DNA from: Lachnospiraceae bacterium
GTDB taxonomy: Bacteria; Bacillota; Clostridia; Lachnospirales; Lachnospiraceae
Length of the DNA stretch: 36,138 bases
Assembly: GCA_024696825.1 (NCBI GenBank)
Contig: JAILGL010000070.1
Span: 1 to 36,138 of the forward strand
Direction: 5' to 3'
Positions 14,213-26,117 of the stretch are shown in pieces. The position numbers and the translations under genes are program-made. The notes under the pieces are model-generated. The model was not told where the DNA came from and ran no database searches. It saw only the letters and a program-made list of their open reading frames with translations. Position 1 is the stretch's first letter; every line of letters begins with the position of its first letter.

Positions 14213-15026
14213 GTTTATTAGCTCCTTACATAATGATTATAGTATAAAAGATTATAGTTATATGTAGTTATATGTACTGAAATATGTATGCAGCTTATAT
14301 GTAAAAATATACATAAAAGAGTATACAAATTTATATAACCATAACCTATCTAATTTTATATCAAAATGAGAAAAATTACAAGAAAATATGAAGAAAGTCA
14401 TATATAAAAATGGGATAGTTATCAACAAATGTGGATAACTTGTTAATAAAAATGTTGATTATTATGGATAAAATTAAATGCTTAAAAATCGGACTTTTTC
14501 ACAAATGTGAATAAAAATGTGAATAAATGGGGGTATTTTTTTTATAACTAACATTTAATCCACAAAATGTGGATAAAAAAGATATGTTTATAAAAATGTT
14601 TACTACAAAAGTAGAATAGTATATTATAGATAAAAACATGTGTGGATAAATTATGTGGATAATTGTTTATTACCGTTGCGGAAAACTAGATAATGTATGT
14701 TATTATTTTCGAACACAATATGAGTTTCTTCCTATTATAATGTAAAATATAAAAAATGATTATTATCATGTTTTTCCACCAAATAACCAAAATTATCAAC
14801 ATTCATATCACAACTTATTCACATAGTTATCAAGAAGCTTTTGAAAAATTTTTTCATCTTATTAGAAGTTATCAACCATTTTTGTCCACTTTTACACATT
14901 ATTTTTTTAGTTTATTAGATAAAAATATCTTCTGTTCTCCTTTTTATTTTTCTGGATGATCTTTTATGATCCTTTAATTTGTCTTCAGAGAATACTAAAG
15001 AATACTGAAAAATAAGTAAAAACTAC
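14213..15026. other. Chromosomal replication origin (oriC) with DnaA-box cluster
   Basis: About 0.8 kb of non-coding, very AT-rich DNA between divergent dnaA and rpmH. Perfect DnaA boxes (TTATCCACA) on the minus strand are at 14430-14438, 14568-14576, 14641-14649 and 14654-14662. One-mismatch boxes on the minus strand are at 14506-14514 and 14518-14526. One-mismatch plus-strand boxes are at 14419-14427 (TTATCAACA), 14556-14564 (TAATCCACA), 14793-14801 (TTATCAACA) and 14815-14823 (TTATTCACA). Strong boxes left of 14.67 kb point one way and those right of 14.79 kb point the other. ATATGTA-type repeats fill 14250-14330. Divergent gene direction on the two sides supports bidirectional replication starting here. 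Confidence 0.92.
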
Positions 15027-20228: not shown

Positions 20229-20356
20229 GAATAGAAAAAGAAAAATGTAGTTAAAAAGTAAGGTAAAAATAATGTATGTAAATAGGAATATATGAAAATA
20301 TGTTAATACATTAATATATAAATATATTTTATAAATGTTGGAAAGTGAGATTTACA

Positions 20357-22231
20357 ATGTATACTTATGAAGAATACGATGTAGTAGTCGTAGGTGCAGG
20401 ACATGCAGGTTGTGAAGCAGCTCTGGCATCTGCAAGACTTGGTATGAGAACTTTAATTTTTACTGTTAGCGTTGACAGCATAGCTATGATGCCTTGTAAT
20501 CCTAATATTGGTGGTACTTCTAAGGGGCATTTGGTTAGAGAACTTGACGCTCTTGGCGGTGAAATGGGTAAGAATATTGACAGAACATTTATACAATCTA
20601 AGATGTTAAATAAGTCAAAGGGCCCTGCTGTTCACTCTTTAAGAGCTCAGGCAGATAAAAAAATGTACAGTAAACAGATGAGAAAGGTTCTTGAAAATAC
20701 CGATAATCTCGTAATTAAACAGGGTGAAGTTGCTGATATAAAGGTTGAAAATGGTAAGGTTACAGGTGTACTTACAGCAACAGATGCATTTTATCCTTGT
20801 AAAGCTGTAGTATTATGTACCGGAGTTTACCTTAATGCAAGATGTATAACAGGTGATGTTAGTTCATATACAGGACCAAATGGACTTGCAAGTGCTACTC
20901 ATCTCACAGCTAATCTTGAAAAATTAGGAATTGAAATGAGAAGATTTAAGACAGGAACACCTGCAAGAATTGATAAAAGAACTATAGATTTTTCAAAGAT
21001 GACAGAGCAAAAGGGTGATACACCAGTTGTACCATTTTCATTTTCAACTGATCCTGACAGTGTCCAGAGAGAACAAATTTCCTGCTGGTTAACTTATACT
21101 AATGAAGAAACTCATGAAATAATAAGAGATAATATCGACCGCTCTCCTCTTTATGCAGGAGTAATTAAATCAACAGGACCAAGATATTGTCCTTCAATTG
21201 AAGATAAGGTAATGAGGTTTGCTGATAAAAACAGACATCAGGTGTTTATAGAACCTGAGGGAGAGTATACAAATGAAATGTATATTGATGGAATGTCCAG
21301 TTCCATGCCTGAGGATGTACAGGTTAGAATGTACAGATCAGTACCGGGACTTGAGAATGCTCAAATTGTTAGAAATGCATATGCTATAGAATATGATTGT
21401 ATTAATCCTCTCCAACTTAAAGCAACTCTTGAATTTAAAAAGATAAAAGGTCTTTTCAGTGCAGGACAGACTAATGGATCTTCTGGATATGAAGAAGCTG
21501 CAGGTCAGGGATTAGTTGCAGGTATTAATGCAGCCCTTGAGGTAGCAGGCAGAGAACAGATAATACTTGATCGTTCTGATGCTTATATCGGAGTTCTTAT
21601 AGATGACCTTATTACTAAAGGAACTAATGAGCCATATAGAATGATGACTTCAAGAGCTGAGTACAGATTATTGTTAAGACAGGATAATGCTGATATAAGA
21701 CTTAGAAAAATTGGTCATGATGTAGGACTTGTACCTGATGATGTTTATGAAAAGTTTTTAGTAAAGCTTGATATGATTAAGAAGGAAATTGCAAGAGTTA
21801 AAACAGTTAATCTTGGCTCAAGTGATAAGTTAAATGCAATACTTGCTGCAAATAATAGTAACCCTGCAGAGAATGGAATTTCTTTATATGAACTTATAAA
21901 GAGACCTGAGTTATCCTATGAAATAATAAAGGATGTGGATGTAGACAGACCAGATCTTCCACAGGAAGTTCAGGATCAGGTTAATATCTCAATTAAATAT
22001 GAGGGTTATATCAAGAGACAGGAAAGACAGGTATTTGGATTTAAGAGAATGGAATTAAAGAAGATACCAGCTGACCTTGACTACAATGATGTATATAGTT
22101 TAAGAAAAGAAGCTGTTCAAAAGTTAAATGACATTAAACCTGAAAATGTTGGTCAGGCATCCAGAATATCCGGAGTATCACCTGCAGATATATCAGTTCT
22201 ACTTGTTTATCTGGAAAAGTTAAAAGGATGA
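20357..22231 (+). CDS. mnmG: tRNA uridine-34 carboxymethylaminomethyl modification enzyme MnmG
   Basis: A 624-residue FAD enzyme. The dinucleotide-binding motif is [13 protein letters not shown] near the N-terminus. The family signatures [17 protein letters not shown] and [18 protein letters not shown] follow. With MnmE it builds the wobble-uridine modification. A GTG at 20345 is in frame, but the ATG at 20357 fits the family start ([15 protein letters not shown]) and has GTGAG upstream. The gene is followed by a terminator that contains a ParB site. Confidence 0.97.
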
Positions 22232-22318
22232 TAAGTAGATGATGTAATGGTAATGCTTATATAGTTGTTTAATAAGTAAAGATATATAAAGGTAGTAATT
22301 ATATATGGTGATTATATA

Positions 22319-22351
22319 GGAGAATGTTTCACGTGAAACATTCTCCTTTTT
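22319..22351 (+). terminator. Terminator of mnmG built around parS site 1
   Basis: GGAGAA and TTCTCC flank a perfect parS (22325-22340), making a flawless 28-bp palindrome (22319-22346) that is followed by TTTTTATAT. As RNA it gives a stem of about 12 bp with a minimal loop and a U tail, the layout of an intrinsic terminator. The same DNA is therefore a ParB site and a transcription end signal. Confidence 0.8.
22325..22340. promoter_or_regulatory. parS site 1 (ParB binding)
   Basis: TGTTTCACGTGAAACA matches the Bacillus parS consensus at all positions. It stands 141 bp (start to start) from the next site and is embedded in the mnmG terminator palindrome. Confidence 0.95.
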
Positions 22352-22401: not shown

Positions 22402-22440
22402 TTATCAACAATGTTATTAACTTTTGTTGATAACATTGTT
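22402..22440. promoter_or_regulatory. Inverted pair of DnaA-box-like sequences between parS 1 and 2
   Basis: TTATCAACA (22402-22410) and its inverse TGTTGATAA (22425-22433) are one mismatch from the DnaA consensus and match the weaker boxes in oriC. They overlap a perfect 11-bp inverted repeat, AACAATGTTAT (22407-22417) and ATAACATTGTT (22430-22440). They could bind DnaA or simply form a hairpin. Confidence 0.45.
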
Positions 22441-22465
22441 TGTGATATAAAAATATCGATTTTAT

Positions 22466-22481
22466 TGTTTCACGTGAAACA
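22466..22481. promoter_or_regulatory. parS site 2 (ParB binding), first of the tandem array
   Basis: A perfect TGTTTCACGTGAAACA. The next site begins 56 bp later. The linker begins TTAGGACGGAT and resembles those of the following units. Confidence 0.95.
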
Positions 22482-22521
22482 TTAGGACGGATACCAAAAT
22501 TAGAATAATATAATCACAAAT

Positions 22522-22537
22522 TGTTTCACGTGAAACA
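22522..22537. promoter_or_regulatory. parS site 3 (ParB binding)
   Basis: A perfect TGTTTCACGTGAAACA. The next site begins 58 bp later. The linker begins TCAGGATCGATTCC. Confidence 0.95.
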
Positions 22538-22579
22538 TCAGGATCGATTCCAAAAAATAGAAATCATATCACCACAAAT

Positions 22580-22595
22580 TGTTTCACGTGAAACA
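22580..22595. promoter_or_regulatory. parS site 4 (ParB binding)
   Basis: A perfect TGTTTCACGTGAAACA. The next site begins 57 bp later. The linker begins TCAGGACGGATTCC. Confidence 0.95.
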
Positions 22596-22636
22596 TCAGG
22601 ACGGATTCCAAAAATTGAAATCATATCAACATAGAA

Positions 22637-22652
22637 TGTTTCACGTGAAACA
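22637..22652. promoter_or_regulatory. parS site 5 (ParB binding)
   Basis: A perfect TGTTTCACGTGAAACA. The next site begins 57 bp later. The linker begins TCAGGATAGATTC. Confidence 0.95.
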
Positions 22653-22693
22653 TCAGGATAGATTCAAAAATTAGAATAATATCAACATAAAAC

Positions 22694-22709
22694 TGTTTCA
22701 CGTGAAACA
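22694..22709. promoter_or_regulatory. parS site 6 (ParB binding), last of the array
   Basis: A perfect TGTTTCACGTGAAACA. The sequence after it no longer follows the repeat linker, so the array ends here, about 150 bp before rsmG. Confidence 0.95.
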
Positions 22710-22779
22710 TTTACATAAGTCAAAAGTTGATATGGATCTTTCCTGAATAATATTTATCAAATCTATTATTAAATTTTCA

Positions 22780-22807
22780 TTGAATATTTAAGTTTTTCAT
22801 ATATAAT
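22780..22807 (+). promoter_or_regulatory. Putative promoter of rsmG
   Basis: TTGAAT (22780-22785) and a perfect TATAAT (22802-22807) are 16 bp apart, about 55 bases before the rsmG start codon. A separate promoter is expected because the mnmG terminator lies upstream. Confidence 0.6.
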
Positions 22808-22862: not shown

Positions 22863-23591
22863 ATGAGTGATTTTAATACTAAGCTTGGAAAGCTTTTACA
22901 AGCTGAGAATATAAATGTGGAAGAAGAGCAGCTTAATAAGTTGGAGGTCTTCTATGAAATGATAATTGAAAAGAATAAGGTAATGAATCTTACAGCTATT
23001 ACGGATGAAGATGAATTTATCATTAAACATATTTATGATTCAATTATCATGATGAATTATTATAATCTAAATGAGTTGGAAGAGAATGATAAGATTTTAG
23101 ATCTTGGAACGGGGGCTGGTTTTCCCGGAGTTCCTCTTGCAATTATGAATCCGAAGTTACATTTTGTATTAGTTGATTCCTTACAAAAGAGATTAGATTT
23201 TATTGACGATGTTTGTAAAGAAATAAATATTAATAATGTAACAACTATTCATTCCAGATTTGAGGATTTGGGTAGAGATGAAGATTATAGAGAAAAATGT
23301 AAGCTGGTTGTTTCAAGAGCAGTTGCTCCACTGAATATATTAATGGAATATGCTATTCCTTTCATAGTTCCCAATTATAATTTTATTGCTTATAAGTCTA
23401 AGGAAACTGAAAAGGAAACCATGGAAGCTGAGAATGCATTTGATAAACTGAAGTGTGCGATTAAAGACAGGTTTGACTATAAGCTTCCAAATATTAATGA
23501 GGACAGAACAATACTCGTTATTAATAAGAAGGAAGCTACGGATAATAAGTATCCAAGAAAGGCTGGAAAGCTTCAGAAAAAACCGTTGTAA
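22863..23591 (+). CDS. rsmG: 16S rRNA (guanine-527-N7)-methyltransferase RsmG
   Basis: A 242-residue Rossmann methyltransferase. The SAM-binding motif is ILDLGTGAGFPGVPLAI near residue 80, preceded by the family's N-K-V-M-N-L-T-A-I-T and the substrate segment K-H-I-Y-D-S. It methylates G527 of 16S rRNA; loss of this activity is known to give low-level streptomycin resistance. The gene is in its usual place between mnmG and parA, but here it is separated from mnmG by the 631-bp parS region. AAAAGGA stands about eight bases ahead of the ATG. Confidence 0.96.
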   Translation: MSDFNTKLGKLLQAENINVEEEQLNKLEVFYEMIIEKNKVMNLTAITDEDEFIIKHIYDSIIMMNYYNLNELEENDKILDLGTGAGFPGVPLAIMNPKLHFVLVDSLQKRLDFIDDVCKEININNVTTIHSRFEDLGRDEDYREKCKLVVSRAVAPLNILMEYAIPFIVPNYNFIAYKSKETEKETMEAENAFDKLKCAIKDRFDYKLPNINEDRTILVINKKEATDNKYPRKAGKLQKKPL

Positions 23592-23679: not shown

Positions 23680-23708
23680 TTGTAGTATTAAAAAAATTGT
23701 TTTATAAT
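23680..23708 (+). promoter_or_regulatory. Putative promoter of parA-parB
   Basis: TTGTAG (23680-23685) and a perfect TATAAT (23703-23708) are exactly 17 bp apart. Transcription would begin near 23715, which supports the parA start at 23787 and excludes the earlier in-frame start at 23697. Confidence 0.6.
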
Positions 23709-23786
23709 AACTTAGTGTCTAGAAGAGAAAATAAGATAATTTACAAGGAAGAAAAGAGCAGATTTATTGCTCGGAAAAGAGTTAAT

Positions 23787-24557
23787 ATGGGTAAAATAAT
23801 TGCAATTTCCAACCAAAAGGGTGGTGTAGGAAAGACCACAACAGCTATTAATTTATCAGCTTGTTTGGCAGAAAAAGGTAAGAAAGTATTGCTTGTGGAT
23901 ATCGATCCTCAGGGTAATGCAACCAGTGGTTTGGGAATAGATAAGACAACAGTTGAACACTCAAGCTATAAGCTTCTTACCGGGGTAGATGATGTTTTAG
24001 TAACTTTACATCCAAAGACAGCTATGGAAAATGTAACGGTTATTCCTGCAGAAAGAGATTTGGCAGGTGCTGAGATAGAGATGCTTTCCATAGATGATAA
24101 AGAATACATTTTAAAGAATGCACTTCACAGAATTAGGAACACATTTGATTTTATTATAATTGATTGTCCGCCTTCACTTAATATGCTTACAGTTAATGCA
24201 CTTACGGCGGCAGACACAGTTATGGTCCCAATTCAGTGTGAGTATTATGCATTGGAAGGATTGGCTGAACTTATGTATACCATTTCATTGGTTCAGAAAG
24301 GTCTTAATCCGGATCTTAGAATCGAAGGAATAGTATTTACTATGTATGATGCCAGAACATGTCTTTCCTTGGATGTAGTAGAGGATATTAAACTTAATAT
24401 CGAGGAGAAAGTATTTGAATCAATTATTCCAAGAAATGTTCGTCTTGCTGAGGCGCCAAGTCATGGAATGCCAATAAATGTATTTGATCCAAAATCAAGG
24501 GGAACAGAAAGTTATAGAAATCTTGCTGACGAGGTTATAGCAAATTTAAATAACTAA
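23787..24557 (+). CDS. parA: Chromosome partitioning ATPase ParA/Soj
   Basis: A 256-residue ATPase with the deviant Walker A K-G-G-V-G-K-T-T at residues 11-18 (the Lys at 11 is the signature residue), Walker A' (L-L-V-D-I-D-P-Q-G-N-A) and Walker B (I-I-I-D-C-P-P-S). ParA binds DNA nonspecifically when loaded with ATP, is stimulated by ParB, and in Bacillus (Soj) also controls DnaA. The frame is open for 30 more codons upstream, but the ATG at 23787 fits the family start and has GGAAAAGAG ahead of it. It lies 56 bp before parB. Confidence 0.97.
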   Translation: MGKIIAISNQKGGVGKTTTAINLSACLAEKGKKVLLVDIDPQGNATSGLGIDKTTVEHSSYKLLTGVDDVLVTLHPKTAMENVTVIPAERDLAGAEIEMLSIDDKEYILKNALHRIRNTFDFIIIDCPPSLNMLTVNALTAADTVMVPIQCEYYALEGLAELMYTISLVQKGLNPDLRIEGIVFTMYDARTCLSLDVVEDIKLNIEEKVFESIIPRNVRLAEAPSHGMPINVFDPKSRGTESYRNLADEVIANLNN

Positions 24558-24613: not shown

Positions 24614-25477
24614 ATGGCACCAAGAAAAAGAGGATTAGGTGGTAAAGGAATCAACACACTTATCGAAGCCAGCAACACAGATAATGGAGCTACTGAAATT
24701 GATATTAACAAGGTTCAGCCGAATTCAAAGCAACCAAGAAAAAATTTTAATGAAGATGCATTAAATGAATTGGTTGAGTCAATTAAGAGTTTGGGTATTA
24801 TCGAACCACTTATTGTTAATAAGAAATCTAAGGAAGGTTTTTATGAAATCGTTGCAGGTGAGAGACGTTGGAGAGCTGCTAAGCTTGCCGGTATCAAAAA
24901 GGTTCCTGTTATTATAAAGGACTATAGTGATCAGGAAGTTATGGAGATAGCTCTTGTTGAGAATATTCAGAGGGAAGACCTTAATCCTATCGAAGAAGCT
25001 GAGGCCTATAACAGTTTGATAAAGGAGTACAAGCTTACACAGGATCAGGTTGCTGAGAAGGTGTCAAAGAGTAGAACAGTTATTACAAACTCCATCAGAC
25101 TTTTAAAACTTGATGAAAAAGTTAGACAGATGGTAATAGAAGAGAAGCTTACTAACGGTCACGCCAGAGCACTTCTTTCTATCAAGGATAAGAAGAAACA
25201 GTTTGAGGTTGCAACACTTATATTTGACAGTAGCATGAGTGTTCGTGAAACTGAGAAATATATTAAAAAACTTCTTAATTCTTCTAATTCAAAGAAGAAG
25301 GCAAAACAGCCGCAGACTGCTATGGACGCTATATACAGCAAGTATGAGGAAAGACTCAGAGAAAGCATTGGTTCAAAGGTATCTATTAAAAGTGCTTCTA
25401 ACGGCAAGGGTAAGATAGAGATAGAGTATTATTCCAATGATGATTTTGAGAGAATTGTAGAGATATTATCTAAGTAA
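24614..25477 (+). CDS. parB: Chromosome partitioning protein ParB/Spo0J
   Basis: A 287-residue ParB. The N-terminus has the ParA-contact motif G-L-G-G-K-G-I-N-T-L. The CTPase/nuclease-like domain carries IVAGERRWRAAKLA and E-N-I-Q-R-E-D-L-N-P, which bind CTP. A helix-turn-helix (L-T-Q-D-Q-V-A-E-K-V-S-K-S-R) follows for parS recognition, and the C-terminal dimer domain is at about 235-287. ParB clamps load at parS and slide along DNA. Its likely targets are the six perfect parS sites 2 kb upstream. GAGAGGG precedes the ATG. Confidence 0.97.
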   Translation: MAPRKRGLGGKGINTLIEASNTDNGATEIDINKVQPNSKQPRKNFNEDALNELVESIKSLGIIEPLIVNKKSKEGFYEIVAGERRWRAAKLAGIKKVPVIIKDYSDQEVMEIALVENIQREDLNPIEEAEAYNSLIKEYKLTQDQVAEKVSKSRTVITNSIRLLKLDEKVRQMVIEEKLTNGHARALLSIKDKKKQFEVATLIFDSSMSVRETEKYIKKLLNSSNSKKKAKQPQTAMDAIYSKYEERLRESIGSKVSIKSASNGKGKIEIEYYSNDDFERIVEILSK

Positions 25478-26075: not shown

Positions 26076-26117
26076 CAAAAAAGTTCTTCTCTAATATTTA
26101 GAGAAGAACTTTTTATT
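26076..26117. terminator. Bidirectional terminator between converging transcripts
   Basis: GTTCTTCTCT (26083-26092) and AGAGAAGAAC (26100-26109) form a perfect 10-bp stem with a 7-base loop, flanked by an A run on the left and TTTTTATTTT on the right. It can therefore stop both the parAB transcript and the opposing glycosyltransferase transcript. Confidence 0.93.

Follow-up and report, generated by a model that had tools for sequence, protein, structure and literature searches.

A parS site extended into a predicted intrinsic terminator after mnmG in a Lachnospiraceae genome, and recurrent candidate parS terminators in Bacillota

Results

The window, by which we mean the whole 36,138-nucleotide stretch of Lachnospiraceae DNA analysed here, is an origin region with the gene order yidC, jag, mnmE, mnmG, a 631-bp gap, rsmG, parA, and parB. 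The identities of MnmG (gidA; positions 20345 to 22231; TIGR00136, E = 3e-262), RsmG (gidB; 22863 to 23591; TIGR00138, E = 2.9e-47), ParA (soj; 23697 to 24557; ParA-family matches), and ParB (spo0J; 24614 to 25477; TIGR00180, E = 2.4e-61), all encoded on the forward strand, were checked with NCBIfam. In a search of the whole genome assembly (2.47 Mb, 185 contigs), all six perfect parS sites, at which ParB is predicted to load, were found in the mnmG-rsmG gap (at 22325, 22466, 22522, 22580, 22637, and 22694). The six sites lie inside 390 bp, with parA and parB adjoining rsmG, as is characteristic of a chromosomal parS cluster, and matches with at most three mismatches numbered 7 in the window versus 0.2 expected by chance.

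Sites 2 to 6 form an array of 57-bp tandem units (22464 to 22710), none of them terminator-like; parS arrays built as tandem units were also seen in three family members, with units of approximately 52, 58, and 122 bp (L092, L093, and L079, respectively). Between site 1 and this array lies an inverted pair of the DnaA-box-like sequence TTATCAACA (22402 to 22433), and the main DnaA-box cluster (14419 to 14801) is located approximately 8 kb from both this pair and the parS cluster. A sigma-70-like promoter candidate for rsmG-parA-parB was identified at 22780 to 22807 on the forward strand (10 of 12 matches), a weak assignment, chance matches of this kind being common. Elsewhere in the window, a 17-pair bidirectional terminator-like hairpin (26078 to 26114) is located between the open reading frame (ORF) after parB and a convergent glycosyltransferase-like gene.

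Site 1 differs from the other five sites in its flanks. On the mnmG strand, positions 22318 to 22351 read A GGAGAA TGTTTCACGTGAAACA TTCTCC TTTTT, in which TGTTTCACGTGAAACA (22325 to 22340) is a parS site without mismatches to the 16-bp consensus. The preliminary description of this DNA had reported that parS site 1 and its GGAGAA/TTCTCC flanks form an exact 28-bp palindrome (22319 to 22346) followed by TTTTT, and that the other sites are without such flanks, and both statements were borne out: the palindromic extension was 7 bp at site 1 versus 0, 0, 0, 1, and 0 bp at the other five. The palindrome is in fact 30 bp long (22318 to 22347), the next pair outward being A-T, and constitutes the predicted terminator stem-loop on the forward strand, with parS site 1 at its apex. 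The T-tract directly 3' of the stem (22347 to 22351) is on the mnmG strand, with none on the reverse strand.

RNA folding of the sense strand of this palindrome predicted a hairpin of 12 to 13 pairs with a 4-nucleotide ACGU loop and an energy of −16.6 to −18.2 kcal/mol (z-score, −4.1), and none of 200 shuffles was equally stable. Depending on where the stem is taken to end, a classical terminator score was +16.2 (28-bp form) or +7.8 (30-bp form), whereas the reverse strand of site 1 scored −41 and the five remaining parS sites scored between −46 and −77. In a pattern scan of 16 kb, the hairpin ranked first of 11 terminator-like sites, with 5.3 expected. The hairpin begins 86 nucleotides 3' of the mnmG stop codon (22231), on the same strand, a spacing that exceeds the usual distance and counts against a terminator. 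Rfam gave seven matches on the DNA examined, all far under the family gathering scores, and hence no curated RNA element. Site 1 combines a stable, G-C-containing hairpin of at least five pairs, a short loop, a U-tract, and an upstream gene on the same strand, the features of an intrinsic terminator; a terminator function is very likely.

We compared the locus with those of relatives. A terminator conserved between mnmG and rsmG throughout the genus was considered and rejected, as two genomes of the genus have these genes close together: in one (G002), mnmG and rsmG are nearly contiguous and three parS sites lie 3' of rsmG, and in the other (G001), the gap is short and the only parS-like sequence lies 3' of rsmG. 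A search for mnmG in a third genome (G003) gave no match. Among the genus genomes compared, parS after mnmG is peculiar to the window genome, which counts against the terminator reading; the most common place of parS in relatives is upstream of parA. The same flank extension, which the preliminary description had proposed to look for in relatives, was found in a family member of another genus (G067), with the identical GGAGAA/TTCTCC stem and T-tracts, and the parS site with these flanks is also present in a contig of an uncultured Lachnospiraceae bacterium (L192). The same extension occurs without a T-tract in a further genome (G129; L089:1933), and this counts against termination as its function.

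Perfect parS sites were found in 189 of 250 family genomes; a T-tract 2 to 9 bases after parS was found in 61 of the 250 and an A-tract in 33. In a crude count across 299 genomes of the phylum, T-tracts (31) were not raised relative to A-tracts (26), so the claims made below are confined to particular lineages, for example Lachnospiraceae, Clostridium, and Paenibacillaceae.

The excess over chance was assessed in a sample chosen irrespective of flanks (122 parS sites from 63 genomes of relatives, the window left out), for which the chance level was obtained from 1,000 shuffles that matched every flank to another one drawn at random. Palindromic extensions of at least 5 bp were found at 21 of the 122 sites (2.9 expected) and of at least 7 bp at 13 (0.31 expected). 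Terminator-like sites, under a lax rule (5 T's of 7) that leaves 2 of the 15 passing the A rule also, numbered 15 versus 0.8 expected, and none of the 1,000 shuffles reached 15. Stratification by G+C content changed these results little. In the mirror control, an A-run after the stem was found at 6 of 122 sites versus 0.4 expected; extension as such is in excess, though less so than the T-tract class, and not all extended parS palindromes are terminators. Two extended palindromes with A-runs after and T-runs before them (L288 in G173 and L095 in G229) are unexplained by termination. One contig begins with a parS site whose perfect extension of 63 bp makes a palindrome of 142 bp (L114:1-150), probably an assembly fold-back.

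Named genomes were scanned with a pattern consisting of parS in a GAA-parS-TTC extended stem followed by T5, and at least 117 such loci were obtained. Among the loci listed, 109 of 117 belonged to Bacillota, the most common named families being Lachnospiraceae (25) and Paenibacillaceae (15); the extension went beyond the required 3 bp in 136 of the 143 strand matches listed, and the stem sequences differed between loci. A contig labelled Muribaculaceae (L205) may be mis-binned.

Because the parS core is palindromic, a T-tract can point either way, which makes its orientation to genes a clean test. T-tracts were present on both strands at 26 of the 117 loci listed and on one strand at 91. Of these 91 listed loci, the nearest upstream gene was on the same strand in 76 and on the opposite strand in 4 (P ~ 3e-18), with 6 inside a predicted ORF and 5 without an upstream ORF in the stretch; gene calls in this and the following neighbour-pair and control counts are mechanical ORF calls rather than curated annotation. 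In the 76 same-strand loci listed, parS followed the stop codon at a median of 21 nucleotides, and at no more than 100 nucleotides in 69 of them. The upstream genes, assigned to families in a scan of 86, encoded RsmG (21), ParB/Noc (17), LuxR-type response regulators (13), GyrA (7), seryl-tRNA synthetase (serS; 6), arginyl-tRNA synthetase (argS; 5), and GyrB (2). At loci chosen regardless of extension, a same-strand stop codon within 100 nucleotides was found for 15 of the 24 sites that had both a T-tract and an extension of at least 4 bp (14 of 23 without the window's own site), versus 2 of 14 sites with an A-tract and extension and 6 of 43 sites with a T-tract and no extension (Fisher's exact test, P = 0.006 and P = 8e-5, respectively). 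At 8 of the 117 loci listed, parS lay inside a predicted ORF; two of these, from gammaproteobacterial bins (L103 and L117), are probably not terminators.

Covariation was examined downstream of rsmG in Paenibacillaceae. rsmG was found in 97 of 98 genomes searched, and a parS site (at most two mismatches) was located downstream of it in 59 of 70 loci examined. A strict stem-plus-T rule was satisfied by 19 of the 59 loci, versus a mean of 2.8 and a maximum of 8 in 2,000 shuffles of the left arm; the reverse strand satisfied it at 7 of the 59, some of them bidirectional, which counts against the terminator reading. This local pairing rule replaced minimum-energy RNA folding as an automatic classifier, which was dropped after returning 14 stems only, A-tracts having been paired with the U-tract; some ten more mismatched stems, recognised by eye, were left uncounted. 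The stems include GAGGA/TCCTC, GCCGTGAA/TTCACGGC, GCCGAGAA/TTCTCGGC, ACCTCCGTA/TACGGAGGT, ACCTCTGTA/TACAGAGGT, and CCTTAGC/GCTAAGG, and show compensatory substitutions, changes in one arm being matched on the other. Over the 8 flank pairs of the 59-row alignment, the covariation score was 0.395, versus a mean of 0.207 in 500 shuffles, none of which reached 0.395, and at most 0.213 for slid pairings; kinship of the rows inflates such counts and is retained in the slid control. Six of the loci, when folded, gave energies of −22.7 to −28.1 kcal/mol (z-scores, −3.7 to −5.7). G-U mismatches outnumbered A-C mismatches in the stems by 7 to 3, very few cases for distinguishing pairing as RNA from pairing as DNA. 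In four Paenibacillaceae loci (L326, L328, L329, and L334), a parS variant caps a longer, GC-rich stem that resembles a terminator and contains an internal mismatch.

Discussion

The element at site 1 most probably has two functions in one sequence, as a parS site for the loading of ParB-CTP and as the intrinsic terminator of mnmG. As DNA, it has at its centre a canonical 16-bp parS site, the place at which ParB-CTP would load. As RNA, the same palindrome with 6 to 7 further pairs (AGGAGAA/TTCTCCT) would form the 12- to 13-bp hairpin with the ACGU loop that, together with the U-run, ends the mnmG transcript. The analysis establishes the sequence, its predicted fold, the recurrence in relatives, the orientation to gene ends, and the covariation, whereas actual termination and actual ParB binding are inferred. 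At the level of sequence, there is good support for parS serving also as a terminator. Of the preliminary proposal, the dual use of one sequence stood insofar as a perfect parS site and a terminator structure coincide and relatives show the same coupling; its placement at the end of mnmG agrees with the strand of the T-tract and with a position past the stop codon, and has no counterpart at that position in the genus genomes compared.

Since the 16-bp parS palindrome offers a ready-made upper stem, any parS site beside a gene end could become a terminator by the gain of a few complementary flank bases and a T-run. parS would in this way have been exapted as the stem of a terminator without loss of either function. 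In the relatives, the coupling appears to be independent, an interpretation supported by its occurrence with different stem sequences, which share the direction of the upstream gene and lie a short way past the stop codon, and the genomes compared indicate that conversion of parS into a terminator has occurred many times in Bacillota. In the window, mnmG transcription would stop on reaching the parS cluster and leave the five-site array, between terminator and rsmG promoter, largely untranscribed; the array may thus occupy an untranscribed gap with the terminator at its upstream edge and the weak promoter-like site at its downstream edge. Insulation of the array from transcription is, we infer, likely a side effect of the terminator.

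A real terminator might also respond to ParB, its efficiency depending on ParB occupancy, with a feedback loop on read-through into parA-parB where these genes lie downstream. Conversely, as the preliminary description had suggested along with an effect of bound ParB on termination, passing polymerase might disturb ParB loading. Candidate parS terminators often stand just before parA (7 rsmG-parA, 7 ParB-like-parA, and 13 unassigned-parA pairs among the 117 loci listed), and a passage of a review describes expression effects of nearby parS sites (PMC7022226), among them raised comCDE expression upon mutation of one parS site in Streptococcus pneumoniae and repression by Pseudomonas aeruginosa ParB of the genes adjoining parS3 and parS4. 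Against such a response, Bacillus subtilis ParB clusters were no roadblock to Escherichia coli RNA polymerase in vitro, long pauses alone being increased at 200 nM, and ParB condensates persisted while transcription ran in vitro, according to the available part of that study (PMC10681803). Many candidate parS terminators, moreover, would end genes unrelated to partition, such as gyrA, serS, and argS, and in the window, rsmG and the promoter candidate separate the terminator from parA. We therefore regard ParB-dependent efficiency as unlikely, an interplay of ParB and termination being possible but unsupported. Equally improbable is the wider proposal of parS terminators as regulatory elements that evolved convergently and are widespread in Bacillota, in which ParB occupancy tunes termination, assembly of the partition complex exerts feedback on the read-through that reaches parA-parB from rsmG, noc, or mnmG, and termination at the edge keeps the cluster free of transcription.

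An origin by mutation alone would require that parS, as a quasi-palindrome, seeds hairpin-templated repair by which the flanks turn complementary, the likeness to a terminator being an unselected by-product. The excess of extensions followed by A-tracts (6 of 122 versus 0.4) fits this, as do very long perfect extensions (17 and 15 bp at sites of relatives and 22 bp among the named-genome loci). Such a process predicts neither T-tracts on the gene strand nor the 76:4 orientation nor a median of 21 nucleotides after the stop codon, and the A-tract control is without the gene-end pattern. Hairpin-templated repair may be how extensions begin; as the whole explanation it is quite improbable. We think it less probable still that the extension serves to strengthen the binding of ParB or to form a DNA cruciform, with transcription irrelevant. 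The palindrome is indeed perfect as DNA, but flank sequences vary freely between species while pairing is kept, which speaks against direct ParB contacts; a cruciform needs neither a T-tract nor an orientation to genes; and wobble-pair stems in Paenibacillaceae (L316, L318, and L320) are imperfect as DNA, the small G-U versus A-C count noted above applying here. That six sites per genome in AT-rich flanks yielded one resemblance by chance is hardly credible: the site is unconserved in the two same-genus genomes compared, but extensions of at least 7 bp are expected in 0.31 of 122 sites before any demand for T-tract and orientation, and the identical stem with T-tracts is present in another genus.

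On the preferred reading, that of one sequence with both functions, the bacterial centromere and the intrinsic terminator, both textbook elements, would be joined in a link that recurs at different origin-proximal genes, and this coupling would account for part of the placement of parS sites. The recurrence of candidate parS terminators in Bacillota is of more interest as a general finding than the single site in the window. Mutating parS could also remove a terminator, so that altered expression in a parS mutant is not necessarily an effect of ParB. Swaps of the stem arms offer a simple genetic handle on whether transcription across the centromere matters for ParB loading.

In searches of a library of open-licence papers, including the available parts of PMC7414963, PMC5815017, and PMC12779278, we found no description of parS as a terminator. 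Site 1 resembles known chromosomal ParABS systems in its perfect 16-bp consensus, its place in an origin-near cluster, and the ParA and ParB encoded nearby, whereas these systems, in the excerpts available, are described in terms of promoters, repression, and roadblocks rather than of parS as a terminator stem (PMC7022226, PMC2346475, PMC10681803). In Mycobacterium bovis BCG, parS overlaps the −10 box of a gidB promoter, regulation being only proposed in the part of the paper available (PMC2346475); there, as here, parS lies over a transcription signal beside gidB/rsmG, a promoter in that case and a predicted terminator in ours. With ordinary intrinsic terminators, site 1 shares the stable stem, the short loop, the U-tract, and the place after a stop codon, and it differs from them in that the parS sequence dictates its loop and upper 6 pairs. 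The closest known parallel, as far as the excerpt available goes, is that of the DNA uptake sequences of Neisseria, which when paired act as rho-independent terminators (PMC2397512). In both cases, a protein-recognised DNA motif recurrently provides the stem of an intrinsic terminator; in Neisseria, two inverted copies of a motif that serves transformation make up the stem, whereas here, a single palindromic centromere site would form the upper stem and the motif serves chromosome segregation.
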